This document shows positions 2,173 to 53,420 of a DNA stretch of 64,000 nucleotides, one piece after another. The stretch's first letter is position 1. Each line of letters begins with the position of its first letter. The DNA lies in assembly GCA_029204225.1 (NCBI GenBank), contig CM055107.1:3662706-3726705 (forward strand). Direction: 5' to 3'. The position numbers and the translations under genes are program-made. The notes under the pieces are model-generated. The model did no database searches. It was given only the letters and a program-made list of their open reading frames with translations, and was not told the DNA's origin. The DNA comes from Diphasiastrum complanatum. Lineage: Eukaryota > Streptophyta > Lycopodiopsida > Lycopodiales > Lycopodiaceae.

Positions 2173-3354
2173 TTAAGCGTGACTAAATGAAGCCAGGAGG
2201 TGGATCGTAAGTAAAAACCAGCAAAGCCAGAGATCGAGAAATCTTCCAAAAACCCCGTTGGCGGTTTGATTAGTGCTTTGGAAGGAGTCAGTACTGCCTT
2301 GGAAGCTTTGGCTAGCACCATAAAGTGATTGAGAACCCTGTATATCGTCATCAACTAGCTGCCGCTTCACTTCTCTTGGACTAAGACTGGGAAACATGAT
2401 TGCATTTTTGGCAGAAGAATGGCCTAGACCAATTAAGTGTCCTATCTCATGCACTGCTACAGACTCCAGATCCATAGCAAAGGGTGATTTTTCTGAAGTC
2501 ATATCAGCTGTCCAGTATTCAGCGTTATCGAGATGGAAACGTCCATCTTCTGGAGAGAATGAATGGGCGAGAATACCCAGCATTCCATCGAAGGGCTGCC
2601 CATCGCTGTGGTCTCCATCCGCGAACTCAATCTTAATGTCTGCGTCGTCGTAGCTGCTGATCTCTTTGAAGGTGAGAGGCACGACGGCGGACCACTGAGC
2701 GAAAGCCTCAGCGAAAGCAGTGGTTCTTGCAGCAGTGGAGACACGAGTGGTCTCGAGCGAGGGTGAGAAGGCGTAGGTGAGGCTACGCTTGCTTGTCCAA
2801 ACTGGGTTGCCAGGGAAGAAGGAGTAATGTTTGATTCCAGTTGTGATCTGTGTCTTCTTTCGGTCGTTGATATCAAAAAAGCTTTCCAGAACATCTGCGC
2901 GGCCACAGCGTGGCTGGATGAGCTGATACAGTGTGGGTAGATCTAATATTCCCGTGATGGGCAATCCAAACCACTGTTGGTAGAGCCTTATTGCTGCCTC
3001 AACGGCATCGTCGAAGTCTGCACTAGCAATCATCCCTTCGGGGAGATCCAGATAGCCAAACTGTGCAAAGTAAAGCTTCAGATGTGCTATGGCGTCGCTT
3101 GAATATCCCTTCGTGGCGTTGATAAGGGACTTGAAGTCGGACCATACTCCTGCTTCTAGATTCAGAAACTGCAAGGGGTCAAGATTAATCGGAAACATGA
3201 ATGATTTTGAAGCAGCTTGATCTGTAGATCCTTCAACACGCATTACTTGAAAGAAAAGAGCCTGAGCCATGAACCAATAAAGGCTCACAAAAACGAAGCC
3301 ACAGCTATAGATATGTTTTACACGACACCCCCGCATGATAAAATGTGACTTCAT
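2173..3354 (-). CDS. Matrixin-type metalloproteinase (plant MMP), intronless
   Basis: A zinc endopeptidase of the MMP (M10A) family, expected at the cell surface or in the extracellular matrix. The 393-residue frame is complete. A hydrophobic N-terminus (about residues 16-40) can act as signal or anchor. A peptidoglycan-binding-like prodomain spans about 65-145. The cysteine switch PRCGRAD lies at 148-154 (Cys150; plant MMPs usually have PRCG followed by V/N). The catalytic domain contains the zinc site HEIGHLIGLGHS (302-313), all three His and the Glu present, followed by the Met-turn IMFPS (Met320). A Ser/Thr/Gln-rich linker leads to a hydrophobic C-terminus (about 368-390) suitable for a GPI anchor. 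Lack of introns and of a hemopexin domain is usual for plant MMPs. The first ATG is used; Met7 or Met29 are alternatives. No break is visible, so it is probably functional. Confidence 0.93.
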   Translation of the reverse strand: MKSHFIMRGCRVKHIYSCGFVFVSLYWFMAQALFFQVMRVEGSTDQAASKSFMFPINLDPLQFLNLEAGVWSDFKSLINATKGYSSDAIAHLKLYFAQFGYLDLPEGMIASADFDDAVEAAIRLYQQWFGLPITGILDLPTLYQLIQPRCGRADVLESFFDINDRKKTQITTGIKHYSFFPGNPVWTSKRSLTYAFSPSLETTRVSTAARTTAFAEAFAQWSAVVPLTFKEISSYDDADIKIEFADGDHSDGQPFDGMLGILAHSFSPEDGRFHLDNAEYWTADMTSEKSPFAMDLESVAVHEIGHLIGLGHSSAKNAIMFPSLSPREVKRQLVDDDIQGSQSLYGASQSFQGSTDSFQSTNQTANGVFGRFLDLWLCWFLLTIHLLASFSHA

Positions 3355-5211
3355 TACAAGCTATCATGAAAATTTTGTTAAGCAAGCAATGCAAATTGTG
3401 AACGTGTAAATCAGAATTTTTTGTACAATCGGATGAAAAGACACACGATCTTTTGTATCATCCAACAGTCAGCTCGTGGATAGCTGAGGTGCTGCGTGAG
3501 AAGATACAGACGTGAGTGAAACGCGTTGTGACTAGCTCCAAAGTAGGCTCAGTTTATTATACTATGGGCTTCTGAAAGCTCGCACAAAACAATCAAGCAA
3601 TAGGAGTTAGCTTTACCTACGGCAATGACAAAGCTAAAACGAGTAACTAGACTAGGTTATATAGTGAATATGGATATATGATGTACTATATACATAAAGT
3701 ACAAAGGAAGCGGGTTACTTGTTTGTGTGTGTGTGTGTGTGTGTGTTTGTTGTGTTGTGCTGTGGGAAGAGGTAACTTATCTGCTTAACAACCTAAGAAG
3801 AAACTGCACGTGATGGAGGTAAAAAAACTCTAGTGTTCTTGTGCTTGACTACAATTTGAGCTAGAAGCTTTGTAAGATTATTCCCTTAGATAAAGATAAG
3901 CTTAACTACTAGATTTATCAATAAGTATGCCTTATTCAATGCACCCAAATGTCATTTTCGAGTCATATTTACATTTTTGTTTTAGTCTACCTAGTTTTCA
4001 TATATATATCTCTCTCTCTCTCCCCCCCCCCCCCCCCCCCCCCCACCCCCCCCACTGAATAATTGACCACAACGACATTGCTTCCACCTATACATTCAAG
4101 ATTCTTTGCTAGCCATATTTACCTTCCTGCAGGATGATTTGGTTGGATTTGCAGTATGCCCAATACAAAGAAGGTGTTATGTTGTTCGATGATGTGACAT
4201 CAAATAATCACAACCTTTTTGTCATCAACATGTAATCATTTGAAAGATAAGGCTTGGAAGCAATTTACATTCTTAAAATTTAGAAAAATGCTTAGTTGAT
4301 TGAACCTCTAGTTCATCTATTTTCATCGAATTAATTGCTAATAGATTACCTAAGAGCAAATCATGACATAATTTTGAATATGGCCATTGATATATGCATT
4401 AAAACATGTATACAATAAACCATAAGAGGCATGATTAAGTAGAGTTCAATGTCCACATTCTTTGTGTGCAATGCAATATCTTGATATTCATATACAAGTC
4501 ATTCATGTAGGAGATGTGGAACCTATAAACTATCCTAGAATATCTTAAGGAAACTAATATCTTAAGGTTTGAATACAAATGGTGAAAATACAAGCACCTT
4601 TTCTAAGATCTTTCAAGAAGCAACAATGGAATGTCAACATAATATAACATAAATAACGTGTGCTAACAGTGGTCAATCCATAAGATCTCAAAGAGCTCAA
4701 GTGAATTGAACCAATTCTTCTGACAAGAATGTTGATAGGTGCAAAGGGTAGGAAGAGAAATTTGGATTGATCCCATATAAACTTCATGTGTTGAAAATCT
4801 CCCTTCAAATATTGGCCTAAATCTTGATAGTACCTAATTGTAACTATTTTCATGGCCTTATTGAAACCTGACTCTCTTTTTTGTTCTATTCTCTAAGTAG
4901 CACTAAGATTTGTGGTACTGATTAGTTTATCATAGCATCTACATGTTAAAACCTGTTGTAAGAAGCTAACTCTGGTAGTATATAGGAGAATTAGTCCCAG
5001 GAAATTATCAAATAGATGTTGATTTTTCAAGTAGAAACTTTGACACCAAGGTTCCATTGTGTTAATAGTTTCACTCGACTCTTTAGTTCCTGGTTTAAGT
5101 TTTGAGGCGATAAGGCTCATTATCTGTTTATAGACGCATAAGTAATAAAAAGGGTAATTTGGAAAACCACACTATAATACACGTGTTTGTTATTTGGAAT
5201 ATTGAATACTT

Positions 5212-5561: not shown

Positions 5562-6847
<1,286 letters not shown>

Positions 6848-7158
6848 GTTGTCTCCAAAAAATTATTATAGAAACATGTCAAAAAATTAAAATATTAAAA
6901 ATTTAATCTAATCAAATCAAATAATATTTAGCATTTTTTTAATAATATGAATTTAACAATTTCATATATTCTAATAAATAAAAATCTCTATTCTATTTTA
7001 ACATTAATAACCATGATCAAAACTAAAATTGCAACAAACTATTAGGATTTCTTTATTACAAACAAATTGAAAAAAATTAAATCAATCAAAAACATCTCAA
7101 AACACAAAGTTTCAAAAAATATAAACACAACTTCTTTTTTAACATAAAAGAGAGTTCA

Positions 7159-7685: not shown

Positions 7686-7880
7686 CCTAGTGGTGTTATA
7701 ATGGTTTTCATAATTCGATAATCATTTTAATTAATATTAAAATAAACTGAATTTTAGTCCAACGTAACAATTTATGAAGAGCATGACATAAATGATGACC
7801 AAAGTATTTCATGACAAGCATAGTAGGAAAATTATCTGCCCACTACGAAAAGTAGGCTGAAAAAAAATTGTCGTATTTGG

Positions 7881-8150
7881 TTAGGCTCTGCATTCCATAT
7901 AAATTTCTTCTTCTAGATATCCGTTTAAAAATGCATTTGAGACATCTAGTTGAAAAACTTGCCATTTGAAAAAAGAAGCAATAGAAATGATGATTCTAAT
8001 TGATACCATCTTTGTAATTGGAGCAAAAGTCTCCTCATAATCAAGTCCATAAACTTGAGCAAAACCCTTTGCACAAAGTCTTGCCTTGTACTTGTTGATT
8101 GTGCCATCTTGATTATATTTAACTCGAAAAATCCATTTGCAACCAATAGT
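7881..8150 (-). mobile_element. Copia reverse transcriptase fragment
   Basis: Typical N-terminal part of the Ty1/copia RT domain: IGCKWIFRVKYNQDG, KARLCAKGFAQ, DYEETFAPI and WQVFQLDVSNAFLNGYLEEE. Open but truncated at both ends, with no catalytic YVDD box. It is fused directly to a different retroelement sequence at about 8150. Confidence 0.85.
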
Positions 8151-8640
8151 GTGCAATCTTTTTGCAATAGTGGCACTTACCCTTCTTCTTGGAGCCTTGA
8201 TCTTGAGCTTCCTTAGATTTTTGACAAGGACGGAAAAAACGAGTAGAGAAAGAAGTCTCGGGATACTTATGTTGTCATGTAGTAGCAAGTGATATAGCAT
8301 CAGAAAGTGCAAGAGGTCGAAAAGATGCAACATCATAGCATAGTGGACCCCGAAGTCCAGCGATATAGCGGAAAATAAGCCCAGTAGGCTGTAAATCCAT
8401 AAAGAGATAAGATAACTCCGTAAACTAATCTATGTAGAGAGCTAAATCACTAGTCTGAGTAAGGCTACCAAAAATATCGTGTTGACGACCCAACTACTGA
8501 GAATCAATCATAGCATAACAGAGGTCACGGCAAAAAGCAGTCCACACATGCATACCCTCTCACGAAAGACACGTCACTAAGTAGCAGCTCATGTAGGGCA
8601 GCTAACTGGATCTTCTGGACATCGATCTTTGGATACATTA
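8151..8640 (-). mobile_element. Gypsy-type gag remnant
   Basis: With stops ignored, the minus strand reads as the retrotransposon gag region of gypsy elements (ALYIDxFTELSYLF, RYIAGLRGPLCYDV, LALSDAISLA), then the start of a zinc knuckle (CHYCKK). The frame runs straight into copia RT sequence at about 8150. Four or more in-frame stops mean it is dead. Confidence 0.5.
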
Positions 8641-8659
8641 GAAAGTATCTTAACAAGTA

Positions 8660-9358
8660 TCTATGAGACTTTAAATGTGTCAACTTGTCTCTTCCTGAGA
8701 AAGAAAGTTCTTACACTCAAAATGAGCAAGGCACCTCAGTCAGTGACCATTTGAACAAGTTCAAGCAGTTGCTGAATCAACTTGATGCAATAGGTTCCCC
8801 TATTTCTGAAGAAGACTCAGCAATTTCTCTTATCGCCAATCTTCCATCCTCCTACGACAACCTAGTATTGCTCTTGAGCAATACTTCTGCTCTATCACTC
8901 CAAAAGCTGACAGCAAGCCTATTGCAAAAAAAGAAGTCAGGAGAAAAAGCTTATCCACAACGAGTACCAAGTCAGTGGCACTATACTCTAATAAGCAACA
9001 GTCCAATAAGAAGAATTTCAAGGACAAGAAAATGAAGGCAGCGGAGCAGCCAGATTCAACGCCACAACAACAACAACAGCATAGACAACAACAAACTCTT
9101 ATGTAGATTCTGCAAAAGATCTACTCACGACATCGAGGATTGTCGCATTCGCAAGCACAACGCAACGAGGAAAAGATGCAGTAGCACCAAGAAGGAGGTT
9201 CTGACTCTGTCAGAAATTTCCAAGAAGATGAGAAGGCACTGATGGTACAAGACCAACCAAGCAAAGATACCTGTGAATGGTCTCTCGATTCAGGTGCTTC
9301 ATAGCACATGATACCATGTAAGAACCTATTTTCTACTCTTACAGCAACGGAATCAAAG
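8660..9358 (+). mobile_element. Copia gag-protease, 5' part of the host of the transposon
   Basis: Frame 8685-9035 is the C-terminal half of a copia gag (SVSDHLNKFKQLLNQL, ISLIANLPSSYDNLVLLLS). A degenerate zinc-knuckle region follows, then the protease active-site region SLDSGAS, broken by a stop, and CKNLFSTLTATESK ending exactly at 9358. The reading frame resumes at 18651 on the far side of the inserted DNA transposon. Confidence 0.88.
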
Positions 9359-9393
9359 CATTAGAGGAGTTCTCAATATCAAAAAGACCCTTT
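9359..9393 (+). repeat. Left terminal inverted repeat (35 bp)
   Basis: Identical over 35 bases to the reverse complement of 18616-18650; the two sides diverge immediately inward (GTAAAG versus AAGGAA). Confidence 0.97.
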
Positions 9394-9794
9394 GTAAAGA
9401 TACTTTTATATTTTTTCTTTAGTTTCGACCGTCACCAGGCCCAATCAAAATGCACAGATTTGAAATATACGTAACGTAGTTCAAATTAACTAAAAAATAA
9501 AAATGCACTATAGAAAACTTTGAAATTTGTGTCCGGGCAGCATGGACGTATCCCATTGGTTTCTTCTTCCTGTCCGACACGTGCTAATCTGTCCGACGTC
9601 AATACCTCAAGTTAAATTTACTTTACTATGCTGGTTAGAATAATGAAATTTTCTAACTATACTAGTTATAGTTATAGAAACATAGTATATACAATTACAT
9701 AAAATATGGTATACGTAGTGACTGTGACTATGTTAAATTAAAATTAAAAAAACATATCAGAGAGATTTTTGGCGCCCAAGCTTTGAAAATAGCA

Positions 9795-11132
9795 ATGGCA
9801 AGGAGACCCAGATCGACAATCGATTCTGTGATTCTTTACAATGAGAAAGATGAAGCTGATAACTGGAAGCCAACAAAATATACGAAAAACTCATGGGTAT
9901 TGCTGCATCCATCATCAAAGGGCAATTTTCGACAAAAGAACAGAACAAAAATGACTTACAAATCTTATTAGAAAGCAAAAAATTTGGAGTTTAAGACTAC
10001 CCCGGGAAGTCAATCGATATCAGAAGTCTTAGTGCAACATGTATATATACATTCAAAAATCAAAGTACATGATATCAATCCTCATGATCATCAAAAATGT
10101 AATTGTCAGTATATCAAAACATATGCACTCTACAACAATTGTAGGTGATTTCCTTTATTGATGCTCTTCAGATTATGATTTAAATGCTTCAACATTGTTT
10201 TTTTCTTTCAGATTTATATCCATCATGCATAAGTGAATGGGAGCCCGGACAATCACTTGTAGGAATATTAGACGTGATTCACTCTGATGTTGGAAAGCTG
10301 CAATACACTTGCAGATTGTGGTATCTATTTTTATGAATCTTTATATGCGCCACAAACAGATGGAGGTTTTGGCAAGCTCGAAGCAATTCCATTGCCTAGT
10401 TTTCAAAGTGATGAGTGGCCTGCTCCTGACAACATTGTTTATGAATCCTTGAGATGCAAGCTACTCATTGATATTAAAAATGCTATGAAGATAAGCACAG
10501 GCTCGAAAATTGTTCACCTAAGTTGGTTTATCTCATTGCATACATTTGTTGATTTTTTCTCGAGTGCTAGTGTTCGTAGGACACCAACTTTATTTGTTTG
10601 CAAGGATTTGTCAGATCTCATGGATCAAGGCTGGGATAGTAAAACAAATAATGACATAGAATGCACGATTAAAAAGACCTCAATGATCTTTCGTTATCAT
10701 ATCGAAAAGCAAATGCTCAGTCTCACATTTAGCTACAAGAGATACAAGAAAAATGAAGGTACATGGCTACCACTGGATCAAGACTTTGAACTAAATGGTC
10801 ACACAAACCGAATGGAGATAAGCATTATCTACAATGAGGAATATTTGATTATGGTTGAGGTGGAAGAGCACTGGAAGCTTGATTTTATCAGAACAGAGCT
10901 CATGTTATTACAAACCAATCTACCAACATATTTCAGATTTATCATCAACGGAAGACTCGTAAGTACTTTATGTTTATTGCCATTTCAAAATAGAACAAAA
11001 TAATAGAAAATGTCATCATTTACAATTGCACATTCACTGATATTTGCCATGTCACAGATGCGAAAAAGACAGGAGCTGATAACGTGCTGCAAAGATCTAC
11101 CTACAACAATCACCATTGTGGGAGAACAATAG
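9795..11132 (+). pseudogene. Transposon gene A: unknown protein, frameshifted
   Basis: I do not recognise this family. The main exon runs from an acceptor at 10210 (TTTCTTTCAG) to a donor after 10958 (CTC/GTAAGT). A second exon, 11058-11132, follows an acceptor CACAG and ends ITIVGEQ-stop; its register fits the first exon. The 10211-10300 part reads in one frame (SLVGILDVIHSDVGKLQY) and the rest in another (LADCGIYFYESLYAP onward). Comparison with the relative at 58359-58612, which has both parts in one frame, points to a small out-of-frame deletion near 10305. The last about 75 residues alternate strand-like and helical segments (MEISIIYNEEYLIMVEV, FRFIINGRLMRKRQEL), suggesting a ubiquitin-like or PB1-like beta-grasp; this is inference. 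A possible first exon begins at ATG 9795 (MARRPRSTIDSVILYNEKD) but its splice phase does not fit well. Confidence 0.7.
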
Positions 11133-12149
11133 TTTCAAATAAACTTTAGTAAAAATCTGTGTATACACTCTTTCATTCAGTAAATGAAAGCCCAAGTTGG
11201 ACATCTATACATGTATTTTGTGCTCCCAACTTCATAAACTGGAGCAGCATTTGATATATCAATGTATATTTTTCTATGAAGTCTATACATGTATTTTTGT
11301 TCTATGCTATCTATATTTTTTCTGATCTTAATTTAGTACAACAACATCATCCTTTGCACCATCATCAATAACAGGAGGCTGAAGCCTTGCCCTAACCAGT
11401 ATACTCAAGATAATTTCTTGTCTAAATCTTTACACCTGGCTTGATGTGTACTCAGGAAGTGTAAACTGCAAAATAGAACATTCATGCATTAGTAATGGCC
11501 AATAACAACACCAGAATAGAAAACTAATCATGATTCCAAAATAAGAATAAGAAAGATGAACCACTCAAAAAAACAACTTGGCATTGTACAATGTGTACCA
11601 CCCACAGCTGAATGAATCATTTTGCTGGGGTGACTGCAAAATAATTCAGCACACAAGAAATCAATTATGAAACAGAATGAATTAGATTGAAAATATTTCA
11701 TTAGAATACTTATTTCAAAATGCTATTAAGAAAGACAGAGTTTACTTCCAAGCTGACGATCTGCCAGTCCACGGAATGGGGAACGTCTGTAGGAATATAT
11801 TTACTTAGATATGGAATGTATATATCTACATCCTTATGCGTATTTCTCGCCGAATTCATCTTGATACAAAAACATTTAATAATATTGTTTACAGATCTCT
11901 TAATAGAGATCAGGTTTAAACTCCAGTGGTCACTGCAAAATAAGATTGAAATTTCTTTAGTTGCAATTCTGAGAACTATTTTCATTGACAATGCCAATGT
12001 TAAAGCATAAAACAGCAAGAAGCATTTGATATAACTTAATTCGTATGATAAGGTATGAGCAGATACTTTGTTGCTGGTGTGAATCCACTTGTCAGACACT
12101 GTGACAATGTGTCATTGTTCTCCTTGAAGGCCTGAACCAGGAAGTTACT
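11133..12149. other. Spacer between convergent genes A and B
   Basis: About 1 kb inside the transposon where the 3' ends of A and B face each other. No supported gene; the short frames at 11710-12099 show no domain. Confidence 0.5.
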
Positions 12150-13031
12150 CTACACCAGCAACTCATTTGATGAATCTCTTGCAATGTCATATTGCAAGAG
12201 TGTAAGCCCGGACTCTATCACAGGATCACTGATAGAAGCCCGTCTGTCTTTGAGATCCAGGCAATCTAGAACTCTAAAATTAATACTAAAATCAAGTTCA
12301 TCTAGTCTAAAACAAAAAGGAGTACCAATTGTATCTATAGCATCCAATATGTCTTTCTCAAATTTAAGATAATCATCCGAATCTATATATGTATAAAAAT
12401 TGGGAGGAGGAGGAGGTGGTGGATGTGTAGTATCTACAACAATTATAGGAGTATCCAAAACAGAGGTAGCTATATTTACAGCATTATCTACAATGGATTC
12501 TGGGATAGGCTTCACTGAATCTGAAGGGTTAGGCTTCGCTTTCTTAGGAGCACACTTGGGGGTTGTCTGCTTCCTAGGACGCTTCGTAGGAAGATTAGTC
12601 CTATCTACAGGAGTTGGTCTAGGAGTAGCAGGCTGAGATACATGTAACCTACAGTACCTATCCCTCATTCTCATCAGAAGCTGAGAATCCTTGGGCATTA
12701 TGGTAACCCTCTTGGTATGGATGGCAAGCAAAAAAGAATCCTCAAAAAAAAGGCAAATATAATCTTCAGCAGCCTCCTGAAGGCACTGAAGAGCACTCGG
12801 TGTGAATCTAACGTGTTGTCTGAGATCATTTCTTGTTATGTTCCAGACAGCACGATAGAATGGAGCTCTTGGGATCAACAGAGTTGTTGACCTCTGATAC
12901 TTGCGTATCTTATAGAGCCACTTGCTGCGGTTGTGCGTTCTAGGTCTAACAGGTGGTGTGATGGCAACCGCAGGAGATGAGGATGAGCCAAGAGAGAAGA
13001 AGTCCCTCCTTGTCTGCATTCTCCTATCCAT
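12150..13031 (-). CDS. Transposon gene B: histone H3-fold protein with long C-terminal extension
   Basis: An intact 293-residue frame. Residues 38-128 follow the histone H3 fold in order: KIRKYQRSTTLLI (alpha-N), PFYRAVWNI (alpha-1), RFTPSALQCLQEAAEDYI (alpha-2) and HTKRVTIMPKDSQLLMRMR (alpha-3). Blocks IRKYQ, LQEAAE and KRVTIMPKD match canonical H3. The N-terminal tail (about 37 residues) lacks the modifiable ARTKQT and ARKS motifs. Loop 1 is one residue longer than in H3, a mild CENH3-like trait, but the KRVTIMPKD block is H3-like, not CENH3-like. Residues 129-293 are an extension absent from normal H3: a basic putative nuclear signal (KRPRKQTTPKCAPKKAKP, 149-166), a run of seven prolines (204-210) and an acidic segment (216-265). 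The start ATG has good context (CCCATGG). It diverges from gene C across the G-box promoter. Nuclear, DNA-bound action is inferred. Confidence 0.88.
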   Translation of the reverse strand: MDRRMQTRRDFFSLGSSSSPAVAITPPVRPRTHNRSKWLYKIRKYQRSTTLLIPRAPFYRAVWNITRNDLRQHVRFTPSALQCLQEAAEDYICLFFEDSFLLAIHTKRVTIMPKDSQLLMRMRDRYCRLHVSQPATPRPTPVDRTNLPTKRPRKQTTPKCAPKKAKPNPSDSVKPIPESIVDNAVNIATSVLDTPIIVVDTTHPPPPPPPNFYTYIDSDDYLKFEKDILDAIDTIGTPFCFRLDELDFSINFRVLDCLDLKDRRASISDPVIESGLTLLQYDIARDSSNELLV

Positions 13032-13347
13032 GGGCGTGAACTATGTGATAGCGGACTTGTGCGTGAAGGTTAGGATGAGAAGGGAGGGATGATAAAGAAC
13101 TCGCAGAGGACCGCTATGTACGGACACAATGTATGGTATATCGGACCTATGCGAGCTGAATATCAGAGAGAACGATTAGATTTGAGGAAAGACGCACAAG
13201 CGTGATATGGGGTGACACGTAGGCAGACGTATCAGACCTGTGCGCATGGAAGGCAGTAGGAGGAATTTCAATTGTGAAGGGTGCACACAAATGCGAAAAA
13301 AAAGTGAAAAAAAATTCATCAAATTTGTGATTTTATATCGGGGTTCG

Positions 13348-13624
13348 CACGTGTGAAAGAACGTCCTGTCACGCGTGTGGGAGTTGTACGGACAAATGCG
13401 AGAGTGACATGTGTCACCCTGTCACATTACACGTGTGGAATTTGTACGATCGAATGCGAGAGCGACACGTGTTTATGAGCAATCGAATAAACACGTGACA
13501 TGTGTCCAGGTGTCATTTCACACGTGTGCAGGTGTCATCTCACACGTGTCTGCGCTGTTGTCCAATTGAAAGTAGACACGTGTCCTAAGTCCATTGACCA
13601 CACGTGCAAAAATTTAGTATAAAT
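13348..13624. promoter_or_regulatory. Divergent promoter with eight G-boxes and a TATA box
   Basis: CACGTG occurs at 13348, 13430, 13466, 13492, 13521, 13543, 13577 and 13601, against an expectation well below one in this length. The core is the binding site of plant bHLH and bZIP factors. TATAAAT at 13618-13624 lies just beyond the last box, correctly placed for transcription rightward into gene C (ATG 13850). The leftward gene B starts at 13031. A degenerate 58-bp tandem repeat (about 13373-13490, sharing TTGTACG and AATGCGAGAG) carries some of the boxes. Confidence 0.75.
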
Positions 13625-13849
13625 GGCACAAAAACCAAATAATTTTTTACCTTTTCCGTTCTTGAAATTCGCGACATATCGTTTTTGTGCACGCTCATTG
13701 CTGTCTGTTTGCTTGCAACTATACCTACTCGTGCACAAGTGCAATATTCTGTATCTGTTTGCCGTACATATCCATCTTCTGCGCCATTTTGATAGTTAGT
13801 TTTGGTTCAGTTCTCCCGCACGCACAAGTGTGATATTCACGTTACTGCC

Positions 13850-15361
13850 ATGGCCTCTTCCTCATCATCCTCACGAGAATCAGGCTTGAATTCATTTTTG
13901 AGTGAATTTGGGATTACTGAAAACCTAGACTACTTCCACAGTCTATTCAGGCCATATCTACATGTTTTCAGGACTGCACATCCAAATTCTGACATATTTT
14001 ATGAACATTATGTCTGATTCAGAGATATAATTAGAAAGCATGTTTTCTCCATAGGTCCACTCCAGTAAATGCATTGTACTGATCTTGTTCGTTTCTTCCC
14101 AGCTTTTAGACATAGACTGGATAGAATGTTCACCAAATTGTTTGATCTTTTCAAAAGTAGTTCTATGTGTCCGTATTGCAACAAGAAATGTCGATTGGTT
14201 GAATATCAGAGTGGTTTCATACTTTTTCTGTTAGTTCAGATCCCAAATGATGATGAAGTTCCTATTGCTGACCCTTCTTTTGCACCCTCCTCTGTTTAGT
14301 CAGCCATTAAGGATATCAGTCACTTTCTTATACTCTTGATAAAGAAAGTGACTTCATTGATGTAAATACTGATGTTCTGCGGGATTCTTTCATTGGCCAA
14401 AATACATCTGATGATGAATCCAAATCTATGGAGGATTTGAAATGTCTTTTCAATTTTTCTATATACTATATTAATGACGATGTATATTTTACTACTGCTG
14501 ATTTATGTAAATTTTTTTACTATCGTGAGGACGAGGTTCTATGTTTATTATCCGGCACAATTTCCAAATTCTCCGACTTTTAGATTTTGAGACAGATGAC
14601 CTTGTTGCTAGTATTGATTTTGATGATGAGGAGGGTCTTATGACCGGTGAAAAATGCCTGAATAAGACTTTATCAAATATAGTTGAGAATGGGAGAGGCA
14701 GACCATCCGATGAAGAATTCACGGCATTTCAATCCTAGATGGGCTTCCCTCGTCCATCATTAATGCACTTCACTAATGATTCCACTTCAGTACGTGGTCA
14801 TTATATTGATCATCCTGATCTGGTTGCTGCTGATGATGAAGAATGTGTAAGTATTTAATCTTCCTTGCATTTGAATATTTTCAATCACTGAATGTGTTTT
14901 TGCTAACATATTTCCTATTGTAGGATGCTCTCATAATAGATGATTTTGCTGCGAGACGAGGTGGTTTCAGACAACACGCATCCTCGTTCCAGAGGGACAG
15001 TGGACTGGGCCACTATCTTAGGCATGTCTTGAAGAATGAGATCTGTATTGCTCATTCCAAGCTGAGCCCAGTCGGGGAGAGTCTTATAATGGCAGTTAAA
15101 GCTTTATCATTTTATCTAGGAGGACATAAATTTGTTAAGACAAATAAGATCATTTTTGTCAAAAGATCTTATGTGTTGAACATTTTAGGCTTTACTGATG
15201 GGAATGTTCCTTTAAGGAGCTCCCATTATTTATTGCATTCCACTTATATTGAGCTTAGTGGAAATAAGGATAATGCACATCTATTAGATGCATACGCTAG
15301 CAGAGAATTTCTTCATGACAATACTACCATAGAATCTGATACAAGATCTGATGATGAATAG
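13850..15361 (+). pseudogene. Transposon gene C: acidic protein of unknown function, decayed
   Basis: Starts MASSSSSSRESGLNSFLSEF. The same frame continues to about 14325 through stops at 14015 (TGA), 14066 (TAA) and 14297 (TAG) and includes a CPYCNKKC cysteine pair (possible zinc site). After a frameshift near 14329 it continues as DKESDFIDVNTDVL, then shifts again near 14580 into an Asp/Glu-rich part with a TAG at 14736. A clean intron lies at 14848-14923 (TGT/GTAAGT ... TTGTAG), keeping the frame into DALIIDDFAARRGG and a final exon ending at 15361 with a Ser/Asp-rich tail. I do not recognise the family. Length would be about 500 residues. Real splice sites plus coherent translation across breaks show it was a gene; acidity and G-box promoter may hint at a chromatin or regulatory role (inference). 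Confidence 0.6.
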
Positions 15362-15481
15362 TTGACACTTTGTATTTTGGTATAATACAATCAATACATT
15401 TACATTGGGTATTTCTCCTCTCTTGTTCAATGAATTTGCAAAGCAATTTTAAACATGTCATGATGATCTTCTACTCAGCAA

Positions 15482-18132
15482 TCATCTAATTTTCTCTTCC
15501 TGTATGAACTTGCATGCTTTTCTAAACTTGTTGTTTTGTGTGGACTTTGTTATATGTCGAATCTGAACTCTGCAGTAGAACCACTGAAACAATTGACAAA
15601 TGTAGTTTCGTTTTTCATTGGTTCCTCCATGTTGTGTATTTCTATGAAATGATGCTCGTGCTTGCCAGTGTGACTTCTCCATCCCTTGTGATGACCATAC
15701 ACTCAAGCTTCCATATGTATTTGCAAAAAATGTTGTATGATCTCTTAGTATGTGCTGCATATGTCAAAATCGTAATGTTAGTCTTATGTTTGGATCTAAA
15801 TATATATGAAAATTTGAAAGCATTTTGAAAATTTTATACTAACCATGTAATGAGTGATGTGATCTTCTCCCCATGATTTTGATATTGCATTAACAAACTC
15901 GACACAAGTCCTTTGGACAGCTTTCTTATCAATATCAGAGTATTTTTCTTTTCTTAAAATAGCAATCATACTATCAAGCTTTTTCCATACAACAACTTTT
16001 AGTACTCTGGTTTTGTCGTCTTTCTCGAAGTCCTGAGTGGCAGCAATAATATCTGTCCAGACTGAGTGTTGAATATTAGAAGCCTTACCAGTATGATTTG
16101 ATAGAAAACGACGTGCTTTTGCTCCTCCTATGCTTGGCTTAGTTGGCATGTTCCCATTCTATCTTGAAAGCTTTTCATCTTTTTGAATTTTGATATGTCC
16201 TTTATGGAGTCTAGCTTTTGATAAAACATCTTCTAATCGAGAGATAGTTTCCTTTGCTAATGATGTTGGCTTAGTATTCCAAGCAAAAACTATATGAAGA
16301 TAAATGATCTTTTCTATTAATCTAACTTCTGCATGAAGAGTGCAAACATGCACATTTTTTAAGGGGGTAGGCAGCACAGGCTTCCAGTTTGGATCTGCAT
16401 ATTCTCTAGTAATTCCTGTACTCCTAATTACATCTTTTGCCATTTTCATGTAGTACAAACAAGGGTGTTTTGATGTAGCACCGTGAGAGACATTATACAT
16501 ACATTTCAATGTTTTCAAATCATCTACTAAGTGCCATTTAACATTGAAGTCTCCAACTCTTGGAACGTTGAGAAGTCCTCCATCCATATGGTCCTTGATG
16601 ATCCTAGGATAAGATGTCCTTGAGAATATCCATGATAATATATCATGATCCTCTTTCAGCACCTGTCCAAAGAATTAATTAGACTTAGTTTACAATGTAT
16701 TAACACTATTCAATAAATGTAATGTAATAATGAGGCTAATGACCTGAAACGCTGCCAACCACCATATATCATTTTCTGACTGGACATTGAATTTGAAATC
16801 TTCTTGGTTCTCTGTTTGTGATAGAGCGCCATTCATGAGAGTTATACTAACCCTTTCCATCTTCTGTCCTTTCACAATTTCTGACTCATCTAACTTAAGT
16901 ACTATGATTATTTTGCCATTCACCTTTTCATAGGTTATATCATAGAATGTGACGATGTATCTCAGCAAGTAATTTAGATCAACAAATAAATTGTTTGATG
17001 AATTATAGGATATCGATCTTCCATCAGTTTCATACACCTCCTCAATATGAAATGGAGTTCTAGTGATCTTATGCATACCTATGTTTAATGTATCCCTCTC
17101 TTTCTTCAAGTGATATGTCCTAGGGATTGGGACTTTTCTAATTTGAACTTGCTTAAAAGCTTCTCTAATTAGTTTAAATATTGTTGTATATGCTTCCCTA
17201 CTAATACCTGCAAAATCACAAGCACCCTGAACTATAGTCTTATCTAAAATATTTTGAATGTCCACCATCAAAGACTCTGCTATTTTACACTTTACATTTG
17301 AAATCCTATTGTTCATCATGATATGCTCAGTGGATTTGCAAGTCAATATTGTGCCCAATGACATTCCTAGTGAAGCATTGTCTTTAATATTCCGAGGAGC
17401 TACTAATGCAGATCTGCAAAAAAAATAGATAGTTAACAGAATATCACCATAGCTGAAATTAAATCCAAATGTCATTGAAAAACTTACAAAATTCAAAATA
17501 TGCTTACTTGAATGCACGGATCCTTCTATTTCGATAACCTTTTTTTGAAAGCGTTTGAATATCCTTGCAACTTTGTTGCTTTCGCTTCTTACTTTTAGCC
17601 TTCTTCTTTACCAAATCCACATCCTTCAATAATTGTAAGTTTTTAATACGAATAGACTATAAGACTGATTGCATTTGCTCTAGTTCTGATTTGATATTGA
17701 TTGTTATCTTCTGTAATGATTCATTTTTTTTTTAAGTTGTTCATTTTCTTCTAACGTCTTTTGGAGATGACAATCTCTATTCTGACAATAAGAGGATATC
17801 CGAACTAACTCACCTTCTAAAAAGTGAACTTTATTCATATAAAGTTGTTTTCCATGGTTTTGCAATCTTTCATAATATCCTAGTAATCCATTGTGCCCAT
17901 TGCATATCCATGTAACTAAATGAGTTATTGAAGAGAATGTGGGATGTGTCCAAGTGCTTGGATCTTGTGGATATAATGTTCCATCTGTCCACAAATTCAC
18001 GTTTTTCTTTCCTTCTGCCCTGTAACGAGAACGATCTTCAACAGATATTTGAACTCCTTTGCCTCCTCTTCGCTGCAAAGGTGCCAAATCAATAGGGATA
18101 TCCACATGTAGATGATATAATGTCATTATCAA
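15482..18132 (-). pseudogene. Transposon gene D: transposase-like, four exons, inactivated
   Basis: Four exons join in phase: 18132-17508, 17413-16744, 16662-15844 and 15754-15482, all with GT-AG boundaries, giving about 795 residues. Exon 1 has a coiled coil (LQKTLEENEQLKKK) and a basic region (KKKAKSKKRKQQ). Exon 2 has IVLKLDESEIVKGQKMERVS; exon 3 has WHLVDDLKTLKCMYNVSHGA followed by TSKHPCLYY; exon 4 has HILRDHTTFFANTYG and WSSQGMEKSHWQAR. The order D...DLK...GATxxxxC...QGxEK matches, from memory of motif layout, large RNase H-fold proteins in uncharacterised eukaryotic DNA transposons; Asp, Asp and Glu are candidate DDE residues. It is dead: a frameshift in a ten-A run near 17735, a TAG near 17660 and a TAG at 16159-16161. 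Being the only enzyme-like gene, it is the likely transposase of the element. Confidence 0.72.
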
Positions 18133-18615
18133 AAAAATAATAGAGTAATCAATTGCATCAAAGTACTACGACCAGATTCTATGAAGCAGAACAAAATACT
18201 CATCTTTGATTATATTATATACTATGTATGATCAATCCAATCTCCATGCTTGTATGCTTGATTCAAATTTGGAAATTCCGCTCATTTTTTCATTCCAATA
18301 GGTAGTTGGCGCTCATATTTCCATTCTCATGGAAGGAATGCATATGTAAACATTTTGCAATTTCTCCTGATTCGAATTTGGGGATGGCGGTCATATTCTA
18401 GATCCAGTGAAAATATTGCCCTTTTCGTAACCAATGGAGGGAATATTTTTGAATTTAGTCAAGTTATATTGCGAACCGTTAACAGTTCTTAACTGTGACT
18501 ATAGACGGTTAGATCATTAGGAGTTGGGGAGGCCTTGGGAGTGGTGTGGGCAAGCAAATAAACAATATTGTTTTATTTATTTTGATATTTTTGTATATCC
18601 TACATGGCATTCCTT

Positions 18616-18650
18616 AAAGGGTCTTTTTGATATTGAGAACTCCTCTAATG
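18616..18650 (-). repeat. Right terminal inverted repeat (35 bp)
   Basis: Reverse complement identical to 9359-9393 over 35 bases; the copia frame resumes at 18651. Confidence 0.97.
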
Positions 18651-19165
18651 TACATTTTCTTCAGAGACTCAAGCACACACAAAGTCAAATCCCAAGGTTT
18701 CATTTGGCTACAATTCCCTGATGGCATCACTGGATAGTTAGATGGTGTACTTTACGCACCCAAATTAACAAAGAATTTTCTGTCTATAAGCAAGATCACT
18801 AATCATGGCTATAGAGCTCTGTTTATTGCTAGCCGATGTACTATTATTGATGGAAATTTTAATGAAATCCTCTCTGCACACAGAGAAGGAAATTTGTATA
18901 TCTTGAGTCATGATTATGCACTTTCTGTGAGTAATTCTGGTGCTCATGTTTGGCATCAAAGATTAGGTCAGCTAAACATGAGGTCTATCTTGTACATGCA
19001 TCACAATAGTAGGGTCAGGACATGAGTATTAACGTTGTCCCCACAGCAAAACAGATTGTCTATGAAACGTGCTTACTAGGGAAACAACCTAGAACAAAAC
19101 TTCCAAAAGGACAAGCCAAAAGAGCGAAGTCCATTCTTTCACTAATTCACAGTGACTTTATTTAG
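18651..19165 (+). mobile_element. Copia protease-integrase, 3' part of the transposon's host
   Basis: Continues the copia frame broken at 9358: YIFFRDSSTHKVKSQGFIWL, then YAPKLTKNFLSISKITNHGY and the GAG-pre-integrase region HVWHQRLGQLNMRSILYMHH. It stops at about 19165, where another LTR begins. Close relative of the copia at 43010-44888. Confidence 0.88.
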
Positions 19166-22520: not shown

Positions 22521-23738
22521 TTAATGCATGCACCTAGCAACATCATTTTCCATATGATCAAAGAAATCATTAACAACAATCTTTTCCAAGGAAGAACCTT
22601 CACCTCCATTGATGAAGTTAGCTCTTTCCTTACCTTTTGCATGCTTGCACTTGACATCAAGTCTTGCTTTCCTATTAGTAGAGAGACAAATAGGAATTGA
22701 ACCAATACCTTCAATCACACACTCACCACCATTGGCCATTTGAATTGCTTTCTTGGCTCCATCATAAGTGACCAAAGAAGTAAAAAACTTCTTGTGACTA
22801 GTCATGTGTGAACTAGCTCCACTATCAATCCACCATGAATCTTTGTCACCTACACTTGATATTAGACTTGAAGAACACATCAAAAGAGAATCACCACCAC
22901 CTAGATCCTCATCATTAGTAGTAAAGTTGATTTGCTTGCTACCTTCATCTCTTTGCTTCTTCAAACATTCATTTGCAAAATGCCCTTTGATTCCACAATA
23001 GAAGCATTTTAACTTAGACTTATCTTTCTTTTTGCCAAAAGAAGAAGTCTCACCTTGATCTTGTCCTTTAGACCACTTGCCTTTTCCTTTGCCCTTGAAC
23101 TTGCCTTTGATGAACATAGCCTCCTCTTCATAATGAGATGTCGATGTAGATCCACCTCTTCTTGATTGAAGACTATACTCCTCATTCACCAAGATCTCTT
23201 GCAAATCCACAATACTTGGCAAAGTTTTTTGAATAGCAAAACTTTGAACAAGATTAGCATGATCATCCAACAAGCCATTAAGTATAACTTGAACAAGTTC
23301 TACCTCCTTAATGCTTTCATCAATACATGCTAACTCATCATTGAATGCCTTAACCCTCAAAACAAAAGCATGAGTATTCTCTTCCTTCTTTTGAAAATTT
23401 TGAAAGATTTGCCTCCTAAGAGTAAGCACTCTTGATGTAGACTTGGATTCATAAAGCTTCTTCAAAGCTTCCCAAGCCTCCAAAGATGATGTGCACTTAC
23501 CAACTTCCTTGAGAAGTTCATTGGTAACATTCATCTTAATCATGTGTAGAGCTTTCTTTGCTCTCTTGTCATACCTCACTTTATCTTGAGGTGCTTGAGG
23601 CCTCTCCTCCACACCTGCAACAATCTCCATCAACTCATTCATCTCCAATAAGGACTCCATCCTCACCTTCCAAGTACAATAGTTGATTGAGGTAAGCCTA
23701 TCATTGCTCTCCAGCATGAATCCACCACTTGTAGCCAT
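22521..23738 (-). CDS. Copia-like gag-protease polyprotein
   Basis: A 405-residue frame starting MATSGGFMLESNDRLTSINY. It has the UBN2/retrotrans-gag signature (YCTWKVRMESLLEMNEL, EAWEALKKLYESKS, LTLRRQIFQNFQKKEENTHA), a lysine/glycine-rich linker, a CCHC zinc knuckle (CFYCGIKGHFANEC) and the protease active site (WWIDSGASSHMT). It binds element RNA and forms the particle; the protease matures the polyprotein. The frame is undamaged up to a TAA at 22521-22523, after which the same frame stays open without an RT. It may be a non-autonomous element relying on a partner's pol. Confidence 0.88.
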   Translation of the reverse strand: MATSGGFMLESNDRLTSINYCTWKVRMESLLEMNELMEIVAGVEERPQAPQDKVRYDKRAKKALHMIKMNVTNELLKEVGKCTSSLEAWEALKKLYESKSTSRVLTLRRQIFQNFQKKEENTHAFVLRVKAFNDELACIDESIKEVELVQVILNGLLDDHANLVQSFAIQKTLPSIVDLQEILVNEEYSLQSRRGGSTSTSHYEEEAMFIKGKFKGKGKGKWSKGQDQGETSSFGKKKDKSKLKCFYCGIKGHFANECLKKQRDEGSKQINFTTNDEDLGGGDSLLMCSSSLISSVGDKDSWWIDSGASSHMTSHKKFFTSLVTYDGAKKAIQMANGGECVIEGIGSIPICLSTNRKARLDVKCKHAKGKERANFINGGEGSSLEKIVVNDFFDHMENDVARCMH

Positions 23739-24048
23739 GTTGGAGTGACCTGATCTTCTCTTTCAACCTGTTCCAATGCACAAAGCACTCTCTTGAATGT
23801 CAACAAATGAACTCAAGAAGATATCACAAAGATATGGAACCTCTCACATCTCTTCTGGCACTTCTAACTAGAAAATCAACACATAGAATAGTGAAATCTT
23901 GATCAACCTATAATCTATCCTCAATCTAATGATTCTTCCCACTTCCTAAGATTGAAACACACTCAAATGAAGTTCAGCAACCTCACAAACTAGAGATCCA
24001 ATCAAAAGTCTTGGGATCGTAAAGCTATCATGCTTTGAGAGGGAGCTG

Positions 24049-38650: not shown

Positions 38651-39592
<942 letters not shown>

Positions 39593-48246: not shown

Positions 48247-51200
48247 CTATTTCTTGAACAGACCTTTGTCTAAGGCCTTTGTGAAAATGTCAGCAACCAT
48301 CTCCTTCATTCCAATGAAAGTAGTATGCAGCTTCTTCTTCTCGATCAGATCCCTTATCAAGTGGTACTTGATTGCAACGTGTTTCGTCCTTGAGTGAAAC
48401 ACGGGATCCTTCTTCAGGTGTATTGTGGATGTATTATCCATCTACAAAATCAGAGGTTCATTCCTTGTTTTGCCCAGTTTGTCAAGGAACTGTTTGAGCC
48501 AAGTGATTTCATTGGCCATCTTTGCTGCTACTACGTACTCTGCTTCGCAAGATGATTGAGCCACGATGGCCCATTTTTTGTTGACCTAGAGAATTGCTGC
48601 TCCTGATGTGATGGTACATCCTCTTGAGACACTTTTAAAGTCGTCCTTGAGAGATGTCCAGCTAGCATCACTGTAGGAAAGCAGCTGGAACCCTGCATCA
48701 CGAGAATAATACAATCCAAAATCCTTCGTTAATTGAAGGTATTGCAAGATTCGTTTCGCAATCTTCCAATGAGTTGAGCCTGGATTCGTACTGAAATGGC
48801 TCATCCTGAACACGGCATATGCAATGTCAGGGCATGTGTTACTTGCAAGATACATTAGTGACCCGATCAGCTTCTTGTATGGTGTATGCTCCATCAATTC
48901 TTTTTCTTCTTCAGTCTTCGAACAATCCTCATTCATCAGGATTGTTCCTGCAAGCATTGGAGTATTTGCTCATTTGCAATTCACCATCCTGAAATCTTCT
49001 AGGATTTTTTAGGTATATCTGGACTGATGAAGGTACAATTTTCTTTCGTCATAGTCTCTGTCAATCTGTAAGCCAAGATAACATCTCGCTTCTCCTAGGT
49101 CTGCAATCTCGCAATGTTTCGAGATGTCATACTTCACCTCAGCAATAAGTTCTTCACTTTTGCAGAGTATCAGGGGGCCATCCGCATATACAACTACAAT
49201 GATGATCTTCCCATTTGTAATTCTTACATAAACGTTGGAATCAACTATTAGTGGCTTAAATCCCAAGGATTTTAGGGCTTGATCTTTCTTCTTATACCAT
49301 TGTTTCACTAATTGCTTTCAGACCGTAGATACTCCTGTGCATTCTACATTGATAAGTAGGAAGTGAATTCGAAATGTAGCCTGGAGGTTGATCCATGTAG
49401 ACCTCTTCATCTAGCTCACCATGTAAAAAGGCTGTCATTTCATCCACGATGTGAATCCTGAGATCATAAGCGGCTGCATATGCAAACAGTAGGCGTAGGG
49501 ACAAATATTTCATGACAAGAGAGAAAGTCTCAACATAGTCGATACCATATCTCTGAGAAAAACCTTTCGCTACAAGTCTGGCCTTATACTTTGAAATATT
49601 TCCATTCGGTCCATACTTCAGCTTGTATACCCACTTGCATTGTACAGTCTTTCAGTTATATGGTAATGGCTGCAACGTCCATACCTCATTCTTCTTCATA
49701 GATTCCATCTCCTCATTCATGGCTTGGATCGATTTGTCCTTTTCTGGAAATTCAATTGCTTCCTCGAATGTTTGTGGTTCTTCAGTGAATCTACAAAACT
49801 CTTCCGATGTAGAAGTTGCACTGCCTGGTACAAATCTTGTTGGCGCTCTTCGTTCTCTTGTCGATATTCTAGGAGATCCTTTTGGTACCACAATGCTCTT
49901 GCCTTTATCTGTTCTGCTAGATTCGGAACCATTTCGATTTACAGGTGTTGTAGCAGTAGGCTGGCTTGCAAATCTTTCTTCGTCTGATTCGTCGCTCGAA
50001 TGAGGTGCGACTCGAACATCTTCATCTGAGTGTTCGTCCTATGCTCCCTTTGTCACAGTTGGTAGGTCATAGTATTATCTTCCAAGGACTTCATAACTAA
50101 TAGGATCATTATTGGCCATTGTTCTGCTCTCATCGAATTTGACGTCTCTGACTGTCTTCATTGTGTTTGTCTCTGGCATATAGACTTTGTAGTATGACGA
50201 ACGATTGTCATATCCTACAAGATATCCTTGTTCTGCTTTCTCATCAAGCTTCTTTCGAATCTTGTCAAGAACATGTGCATATGCTGCACAGCCAAAAATT
50301 CGAATATGAGTCGGATTGGGTTTTCTACCCCACCATAATTTGTGTGGTGTTGTATGAGGAACACCAGATTTTCCTGTCCTATTCTGAATGTAAGCAGCTA
50401 TAGCTACTGCTTCAGCCCACAGCACTCTTGGAGCCTTCGAATAGGCCATCATGCATCTGGCGGCTTCTATGAGAGTCATGTTCTTTCTTTCTACAACACC
50501 GTTGTGTTGCGGTGTATAAGATGCAGTCCTTTTGTGAATGATTTCTTGATCATTGCAGAAATTAATGAATCGGTTTGAGATCTATTCTCCACCCCGATCT
50601 GTTCTGATCTGCTTCACCTTGTTTCCTGTGTATCTTTCTGCCCAGTTCACATACTCTATGAATTTGTGAAATGCATTTGATTTATTGTGAATGAAGTAGA
50701 CTCTAGAAAACCTATTATAATCATCAATAAAGGTGATATAATATTTTGAGCCTCCTATTGAGATCACGTTGAAAGGTCCATAGATGTCTGAATGTACTAG
50801 CTCCAGAATCTTTGTTGTTCTTTAGGAGTCCTTTACAAAAGGAGTACGTGACATCTTACCTTTTATACATGCATCACAGGTCATCGAATTGGTTGCATTC
50901 GAGATGCTCACCCCTGTGATTGCTCCATGATGGCTTGTTTGATACAGTTCCATTGAATTCATATGGCATAGTCTCCTGTGCCATAGAATATCTAACGAAT
51001 CATCATAAGTCTGATGTACTTGATCTGTAGATAGGCGTACCCTCAGGTGATACATGTTGCCTTTTCTTCTACCTTGTGTAATTAGTGTATTGGTGCTTGC
51101 ATCAACAACATTGCATGCTTCATCCGAGAACGTGACACACATCCCTGCATTAGCTATTCTTGCCACTGATAGCAAGTCCTGCTGCAGTGTAGGCACGAAC

Positions 51201-51310
51201 AAAATGTCTTCGAGTTGTCTGTCTTTGCCGTTTGTGTTGATCCGGAGTGTGCTGGCCCGGAGTAGCGCCCTGGTCGCGAGTAGTGGCTGAAACATCGAGT
51301 TGGGCATCGA
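48247..51310 (-). mobile_element. Copia pol: protease end, integrase, RT and RNase H, inactivated
   Basis: Minus-strand order: integrase N-terminus (DILWHRRLCHMNSMELYQTS, a CDACIKGK zinc motif), integrase core (YYITFIDDYNRFSRVYFIHN, RTDRGGE, then 50075-50479 with the WAEAVAIAAYIQNR box), RT (49009-49620, VVYADG in place of YVDD) and RNase H (YSDASWTSLKDDFKSVSRGC, HSRTKHVAIKYHLIRDLIEK, DIFTKAL). Several stops and frame changes. With the family E LTR at its lower side it is one element, cut at 51310 by the oppositely oriented copia. Confidence 0.92.
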
Positions 51311-51394
51311 GCTGGGACAGCGGCCCAGAGTGTGCTGGCCCAGGATGTATTAGGGAAGCGGCGGCCATGCAGGAGGGGTGGGGGGGTATTCTTA

Positions 51395-53420
51395 CTTTCA
51401 TCTAAAGCACAAGTATTTGAAAGCTCTCTTAAGTTCAAAGAATTTGTTGAGAAGTATCTTGATCACAAGCTCAAAACTTTTAAAGGGATAATGGTGGAGA
51501 ATATATCTCCAATGCATTTAAAGATTTTTGTGATCAAGAAGAAATTAAAAAAGAATTATCTTGTCCCTTCACCCCTCAACAAAATGGGGTAGCCGAGAGG
51601 AGGAATAGGACATTGTGTGAATGTTCTAAAGCCTTAAGGATTGATGCATGTTTACCAAAATCTCTTTGGGGATAAGCTCTCACTTGTGCTAACCATTTGC
51701 TGAATAGAATTCCATGTAGCTCTATTGAAGGCAAAACACCCTTTGAAGTCTTGTATGGGAGGAAGCCAAATCTCAAGGACTTAAAGGTGTTTGGATGCAT
51801 TTGCTATGTGCATACACCTTTGGAGAAAAGGACCAAGGAAGATCCATCATCAATCAAATGTATTATGCGCGGGTATGGCAAAGCAAGATATAAGGTATAC
51901 ATTCCATCTTCAAACAAGTTTGTGGTTTCTAGAGATATCATTTTTGATGAGGATAATATGCATAAACTTATTGATGGCTCAATCAAATCACCTATCAAGA
52001 GGGAGGTGGTCGAGGATCAAGATGTCATAGATCTTGAGGTGGAGCTAGAGCCAAGTGAATCAATCACTCCAAGAAGATCATCAAGGGTAAGAATGCAGCC
52101 ATTGAGGCTCACATACCAAGACAAGGGGAAGCAAGTCGAGGGTAATCCATCTTCATCCTTTGCACTCATTTCAAGTTTTGAAGAACCTTCATGTGTAGAA
52201 GATGCATTGAGTTCAAAGGAATGGTTTCAAGCTATGATAGATGAATATAATGCTTTGATGGAGAATGGCACATGGATCCTTGTTGATATACTCTTAAGAA
52301 TGTGATTGGATGGCTCAAGCAAAGGGCATAGATTTTGAAGAAACTTTTGCACCCCTGGCCAAGATGGTCACAATAAGGTTACTTCTTGCACTTGCTTCAC
52401 ATTTTGGTTGGATGCTCTTTCATATGGATGTTTCTAATGCATTATTAAATGGTTATTTGGAAGAAGACATCTTCGTGGAGTAGCCCCAAGGCTTCATCAA
52501 GCTCGGGATGGAAGGTAAAGTATGTCATCTTCAAAGGAGCTTATATGGTTTGAAGCAAGCATCAAGATCTTGGAATTCAAGACTTCATGATTTCTTAGTT
52601 TCTATTGAATTCACTCAAAGTGAATATGATCCAGATTTTTACATAATGTATGATGTAAATGGCATTGTACTTTTATTGATTTATGTAGATGACATCATCC
52701 TTAGTGGTGATAACGTTGATGGTATTGAGAAGACCAAGAAAAATCTATCACTAGAATTTAAGATGGTAGATCTTGGTCAACTTCACTTTATATTGGGCAT
52801 AGAAGTACTTAGGGGTTCAGATTTCATCTCTATTAGTCAAACTAAGTATGCTCAAAGTTTTCTCAATAGATTCAAGATGCAAGATTGCAAGCATGTAGAA
52901 ATACCAATGGAGCAAGATGTAAAACTGCCCAATAAAAGTCATGAAGCATCACTTATGGACATCACTCTTTATAGGCAATTTATATGCTCCTTAATGTGGA
53001 TCACCATAACTAGGCCTGATCTATGCTTTAGTGTGTGTAGGCTAAGTCAATATGCAAGATCCATTAGTGATATATTGGAAAAATGCTAAAAGGATCTTAA
53101 GATACATCTCGGGTACTCTAGATCATGGAATTCTCTATAGAGGAGATGTCATTGATTATTTTCCAGAGAATTCAAAGTTGATAGCATAGGGAAATCATCT
53201 CATTTACATTCTATGTGATTCTTCATGTCATATGTAGGTGCAATATCACTTTGTGAGGAAGCAAGTCATGGCAAAGGAGGTGGAGCTTCAACATGTGTCC
53301 TCAAGGGAATGTGTAGCTGATATCTTCACCAAAGCATTGGTAAAGGACTTGTTCATGAAGCATAGGACATCACTTGGAGTGTTATCAAAGTCTATGCTAA
53401 AACTAGTTGAAGAGGGAGTG
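51395..53420 (+). mobile_element. Copia integrase-RT-RNase H, inactivated
   Basis: The plus strand starts inside the integrase (FKEFVEKYLDHKLKTFKG, QQNGVAERRNRTLCE), continues with the C-terminal region (KTPFEVLYGRKPNLKDLKVF), the Glu/Ser-rich linker (to 52300), RT (HLQRSLYGLKQASRSWNSRL; YVDD motif in LLLIYVDDIILSG near 52685) and RNase H end (YHFVRKQVMAKEVELQHVSS, DIFTKALVKD). Stops near 52303, 52483 and 53087 break it. Its linker is related to the odd element at 21435-22340. Confidence 0.92.

Follow-up and report, generated by a model that had tools for sequence, protein, structure and literature searches.

Background and comparison with known elements

The described systems closest to the element reported here are the transposons of the CMCT clade, Lanisha from the moss Ceratodon among them, and the RAG1/RAG2 transposons of animals, such as ProtoRAG, in which a RAG1-like transposase lies beside a chromatin-related partner gene; animal RAG2 reads H3K4me3. 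In the available part of PMC12730594, CMCT transposases are described by a DDE triad with C(2)C and H(3-4)H motifs between the second D and the E, most members have CA..TG termini, target-site duplications (TSDs) are said to be 2-5 bp, and Lanisha is cited as a named lineage of the clade (Maumus, McDaniel and Carey 2020, Repbase Reports). TransibSU is a further RAG1/RAG2 element, as given in the available part of PMC4411706. Transposons carrying chromatin enzymes or regulators were known before, namely TET/JBP genes in fungi, SET in HarbingerS/MuDR and the Vandal anti-silencing protein (PMC12730594, same part), as was fungal H3 as captured cargo of hAT elements (PMC6710886, available part). 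Here, we describe a 9,292-bp unit between terminal inverted repeats (TIRs) in a 64-kb stretch of Diphasiastrum complanatum contig CM055107.1 (the window), which carries four genes, A to D, including a histone H3-like gene (B) and a putative transposase gene (D). In our reading, to which we give a probability of about 0.55, the unit belongs to a high-copy transposon of the cut-and-paste type with four genes and a CMCT-like (RAG1/Transib/CACTA-like) transposase, of which it is one decayed copy; the H3 variant that it encodes would act on the element's own chromatin.

Like the CMCT clade, the element has a DDE core whose second D and E enclose C(2)C and H(4)H, 5'-CA..TG-3' ends and a RAG1/Transib-like model fold; unlike it, the element has neither a Pfam transposase match nor a 2-5 bp TSD, and it carries an H3 gene plus genes A and C. 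It shares with the RAG1/RAG2 transposons the pairing of a RAG1-like transposase with a chromatin-related gene, whereas A and C contain no RAG2-like family by Pfam and the partner is H3 itself. As in the fungal hAT elements, H3 is amplified inside a DNA transposon; the available part of PMC6710886 describes host-gene capture and copies inactivated by repeat-induced point mutation, in contrast to the diverged, constrained H3 variant and different transposase found here. The TET/JBP, SET and Vandal elements likewise carry genes that act on silencing marks, but those genes, as far as the available part of PMC12730594 describes them, encode enzymes or regulators and not a nucleosome building block. 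The element may be Lanisha.

An earlier note on this DNA had placed the gene set in no named plant superfamily. The transposase is not without kin, given its CMCT/RAG1 signature and the named Lanisha lineage; the clade is known, and what would be new is a constrained histone H3 gene carried by a plant DNA transposon. A literature search of titles and abstract openings, with Repbase Reports and most subscription papers outside its reach, found, among the papers listed, no plant transposon with a histone H3 gene.

Structure and insertion site of the unit

The unit spans positions 9359-18650 and is present once within the window. Its ends, the flanks and the two genes on which the argument turns are as follows.

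9200..9358, plus strand: left flank, interrupted copia Pol with the first part of Pol_BBD (from frame and Pfam)
9359..9393, plus strand: left TIR, 35 bp, starting 5'-CA, complementary to the right end
12150..13031, minus strand: gene B, H3-like, with basic proline-rich linker and C-terminal extension (open 296-aa frame, 12150-13040; PF00125)
15482..18126, minus strand: gene D, putative RAG1/Transib-like (CMCT-like) transposase, multi-exon, with introns at 17414-17507 (94 nt) and 16663-16743 (81 nt)
18616..18650, minus strand: right TIR, 35 bp, ending TG-3', complementary to the left end
18651..19025, plus strand: right flank, the same copia frame continued (from frame and Pfam)

The TIRs are complementary at 35 of 35 positions, the perfect inverted repeat that had been claimed, and the termini, CATTAGAG...CTCTAATG, have the 5'-CA..TG-3' form seen in most CMCT members. 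A 28-mer of the TIR core occurs at two sites only in the window when up to three mismatches are allowed (none in 100 shuffles) and has no match in viral_contigs. With the unit removed precisely at its TIRs (9358|18651), the flanks form a single copia frame, residues 13-93 of which align to positions 1-81 of the 81-position Pol_BBD profile (PF22936) with 71.2 bits; the separate parts score 33.5 and 27.7 bits. This whole-length match after excision indicates that the unit inserted into a pre-existing, now decayed, copia element. The clean interruption of a copia frame described earlier is borne out at the junction, but not an intact copia, as the interrupted element is itself a pseudogene with two in-frame TAG codons in the joined stretch. 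Two candidate TSDs were rejected: AT would break the copia frame kept by the exact TIR junction, and TA was dismissed by reading the sequence only.

Strand changes from gene to gene, A(+), B(-), C(+), D(-), as first proposed, and the genes are longer than single open reading frames; B and C lie head to head, and C and D tail to tail. In the window copy, A, C and D are broken by stops and/or frameshifts, and B is open.

Copies of the element and linkage of B and D

Further copies were sought in the window's own assembly (1.7447 Gb, 5,176 contigs). An 88-nt left-end probe gave 40 scored places at 99-100% identity, out of 1,321 loose candidates, which supports a multi-copy element in a plant-type genome. 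The exact 35-mer was present in 28 of 28 loci (L001-L028, 21 distinct places) picked as the best left-end matches. Twenty places were read over 10 kb; each has the exact 35-mer, and their interiors agree in blocks at 87-99%. Since these copies were picked by end match, the choice itself accounts for part of the end identity. B was found in 15 of the 20 and pieces of D in seven, each time together with B, and several of the stretches end or are interrupted ahead of D. Eighteen more places were read at the B position only and five of them contained B (L035-L038, L050), from which it appears that many copies are deleted there.

Protein B had at least 132 scored matches in the genome (81-100% identity) and D exon 2 at least 150 (92-100% identity), both spread over many contigs. 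Of the 132 scored B matches, at least 24 (one of them in the window) lie no more than 12 kb from D exon 2, on the same strand in every case, 23 of them with D on the expected side at 2.9-4.7 kb and one at 9.7 kb, compared with 0.27 pairs expected by chance; the count is a lower bound because scoring was confined to the top of thousands of candidates for either query. B and D recur together between matching TIRs outside the window, and the TIRs are not confined to it, so that neither of the two outcomes named in the earlier note as refuting was seen: L009 has both perfect TIRs and pieces of all four genes in partly inverted blocks, and L025 is a deleted 5.1-kb copy with both perfect TIRs in which each of the four genes is represented by a piece. 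A third locus, L051, has kept the left end and genes A and B, along with part of C and a part of D in inverted orientation, and two further loci with B and D exon 2 have right ends (0 and 2 mismatches), their left ends not lying within the stretches read.

The inverted inner blocks of L009 and L051, and the two ends of L026, both derived from the left end, look as if ends act on each other within or between copies. Separately, the locus pairs L018/L019 and L027/L028, about 56 kb and 160 kb apart, have matching coordinates and flanks and are apparently segmental duplications.

The putative transposase encoded by gene D

The identification of D as a transposase, suggested earlier, is supported by its predicted fold and by its catalytic motif. 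A third intron probably lies between about 15763 and 15844, and the window copy has a frameshift in an A-run near 17725 plus in-frame stops. In the homolog P0030 the candidate triad is D411/D508/E785, with C528-x2-C531 and H761-x4-H766, so that the DDE triad and the C(2)C and H(3-4)H motifs between the second D and the E are found in the D family. Across 34 aligned D rows, the first D is present in 28 (six gaps), the second in 33 (one gap) and the two cysteines in 31 and 32. The window exon at 15482-15763 shows HILRDH and GMEKSH. The predicted model of the D family has the RAG1/Transib-like catalytic fold expected of the CMCT clade, the match having been made by VIA-align as the single method.

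Neither the D exons of the window nor nine homologs matched a Pfam transposase family, including Transposase_21, the plant CACTA profile that would be expected for a CACTA/EnSpm element, and NCBIfam gave weak, scattered matches only to the 34 rows. The 15 pattern matches in viral_contigs and 65 in genome_contigs included no confirmed relative of D. The D family, a putative group of plant transposases with a predicted fold like that of RAG1, was missed by the Pfam scans and PDB sequence search used.

Gene B encodes a constrained H3-like protein with an altered tail

The domain in B is H3-like by sequence, as originally recognized, matching Pfam Histone (PF00125, E 1.5e-26) over residues 29-126 and finding H3 chains as its best PDB sequence matches (E 1.5e-21). 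KRVTIMPKD, loop 2 of the H3 core domain, is unchanged in the window copy, L013, L019 and a diverged B described below, and loop 1 is one residue longer than in H3.1. The core is followed by a basic proline-rich linker and then by about 120 residues common to the copies; the window protein (296 aa) stops earlier than those of L013 and L019 (334 and 331 aa, stop to stop).

The tail could be read in 15 of 16 copies and has the common form MDRRKQTRRDFF, aligned to ARTKQTARKS of H3. K4 is kept in 14 of the 15; at residue 9, 14 tails have D, one has H and none has K, so the tail is not of the canonical K4/K9/K27 type. In L013 and L019, K4 is the sole lysine ahead of the core. A database H3, P0008, reads ARTKQTARREG at its start, and nothing ties it to a transposon.

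The ratio of nonsynonymous to synonymous substitution (dN/dS) of B, pooled over 16 copies, was 0.43 in frame versus 0.64 and 0.80 in the wrong frames, and 0.31 over tail and core; median values were 0.66 for A, 0.52 for C1, 0.36 for C4 and 0.66 for D2. Selection thus seems to keep the altered H3 gene, and as the pooled value comes mostly from dead copies, live ones should be under stronger constraint. Together with the tail pattern, K4 kept and K9 lost, this is compatible with a chromatin role, without proving one. CHG methylation was considered as the source of the many TAG stops in B and rejected (B of L013 has 10 CAG codons versus one CAA).

The same genome contains a diverged element (L017 and L029; oriented 7873-11562) that repeats the order and orientation of D, C and B, at identities of 39% for B, 31-42% for C and 52% for the last D exon; its TIRs were not found. 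The diverged B begins MARTKQTARLHPRG (MARTKQTARL), an exact H3 start that departs at residue 9, so K9 is lost in both families.

Proposed role of the H3 variant and alternative explanations

We propose that D would cut and join DNA at the TIR ends (5'-CA...TG-3') through a DDE mechanism, its catalytic core being a RAG1-like RNase H fold that carries a C(2)C/H(4)H zinc site. We take B to belong to the element's regular gene set and not to recent cargo; it would be made together with D, pair with host H4 and be deposited on or near element DNA. The resulting nucleosomes could not be methylated at H3K9 but would still present an H3K4-like site, and the element would stay expressed or its ends accessible to D. 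A bolder version is tentative and, on balance, doubtful: an ancient RAG1-like plant lineage with its own H3, in which the K4 context (ARTKQTAR / DRRKQTRR) was kept and the K9 silencing site lost, would form silencing-resistant, K4-markable nucleosomes, with the transposase coupled to an H3K4-type signal in parallel to animal RAG2. A standing, constrained, tail-altered H3 in a transposon would give selfish elements a new means of acting on silencing. It raises the idea of a jumping gene that supplies a chromatin protein for its own DNA, and whether an element dictates its own nucleosome state becomes testable with one protein.

Several observations weigh against this proposal. No TSD was found at the window, L009, L025 or L026, the four copies with both ends read; as the last three are rearranged (L009 and L025 internally, L026 with two left ends), strong evidence for a zero TSD comes from the clean window junction only, and since the 2-5 bp TSD of the clade is lacking, we call the element CMCT-like and do not claim membership. 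The exon bearing the catalytic E is covered by three of the 34 D rows (all with E and HxxxxH) plus the window exon, and the D profile (A2) found neither RAG1 nor HzTransib at E up to 10 among PDB sequences that include chains of both. Stops occur in 106 of the 132 scored B matches (26 without stop, by hand count), at residue 5 in two of the 15 tails (L010 and L023), and in the diverged B, the only one of its kind; the exception to K4 is the window copy itself, with M at position 4. The B extension is less constrained (dN/dS 0.55), and D3 gave 1.80 (seven copies, small dS). Arabidopsis H3.1 shares 51% identity with the B core and plant CENH3 shares 45-48%, a 20-row tree neither settled the place of B nor grouped it with CENH3, and a protein search with B returned 17 H3-type proteins, none shown to lie inside a transposon. 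Finally, copies were picked by end identity or best protein score.

The main rival is that B is captured cargo, a host H3 gene taken up once and amplified passively with no function for the element. There is a precedent in Pseudocercospora fijiensis, where a hAT DNA transposon captured H3 and amplified it to hundreds of copies (PMC6710886, available part); the high proportion of B matches with stops would fit it, and no B-D link was seen outside this genome. Against this, B is far from host-type H3 at 51% identity, the dN/dS of 0.31 over tail and core compares with whole-gene wrong-frame controls of 0.64 and 0.80, and in the diverged family B has the same position next to C and D. This divergence, constraint and second family make passive capture less likely. 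Slightly less probable than cargo is that B serves the transposition machine and not the avoidance of silencing, by packing or marking the ends, helping targeting, or acting like CENH3 to steer insertion to or from centromeres. Residues recalling CENH3 (LLIP..PF, AAEDY, DSFL and the one-residue loop-1 insertion relative to H3.1) point that way, and since RAG2 reads H3K4me3, the proximity of a RAG1-like enzyme to an H3 that bears K4 is suggestive too. Against this, the identity of B to CENH3 does not exceed that to H3.1, the tree does not join the two, and matches lie on many contigs.

Two further explanations have little in their favour. Some DNA viruses carry histones, and four genes between long TIRs could recall an endogenous DNA virus or virus-like element; this is very improbable, as the D family has a RAG1-like predicted fold, Pfam scans of pieces of A-D gave no capsid or polymerase family, and none of the 15 pattern matches in viral_contigs was confirmed as a relative of D. 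Least probable is an assembly or nesting artefact, or TIRs of a younger element around an unrelated gene cluster. The internal rearrangements of L009, L051 and L026 could point to such a case, but 23 same-strand B-D2 pairs share one spacing on many contigs, 24 pairs were seen where 0.27 were expected, and the same ends occur on copies with A, B, C and D. We prefer the four-gene transposon with its own H3 variant.

Genes A and C and neighbouring features

The remaining parts of the unit are listed below.

9795..11132, plus strand: gene A, unknown protein, broken by a stop after TYKSY and a frameshift near 10300 (relative to copy L018); main exon 10278-11003
13032..13849, no strand: intergenic region between the divergent genes B and C (from gene positions)
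13850..15361, plus strand: gene C, acidic, with a CxxC stretch, a 77-nt intron at 14847-14923, stops and frameshifts; last exon 14924-15361 open

The region at 13032..13849 is probably a shared promoter region of B and C. Gene C, being acidic, could act as a chaperone for B. No Pfam family was found in scans of its pieces, and the C part of the protein-search query found no homolog; copy L010 has longer open pieces of C (309 and 184 aa). An H2B-like histone fold, seen by eye in the last C exon, was rejected when Pfam and PDB sequence searches gave no support. Protein A has seven homologs in the protein search, at 94-31% identity. Its predicted model is poor (predicted local distance difference test score, pLDDT, 48.8), and strand order alone hints that the C-terminal end could have a ubiquitin-like fold. 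One relative of protein A at 31% identity, P0063 (290 aa, on a contig of 595,556 bases), is a lead for the element elsewhere.

In the rest of the window, further open frames at 7881-9106, 22521-23762 and 50822-53089 are copia-like by eye, and the region seems retroelement-dense. A 395-aa open frame at 2173-3360 on the minus strand resembles, by eye, a plant matrix metalloproteinase (HEIGHLIGLGH). Tandem arrays with an 8-bp unit lie at 6682-6900 and from 38913-39163 onward, and are related between the two places.

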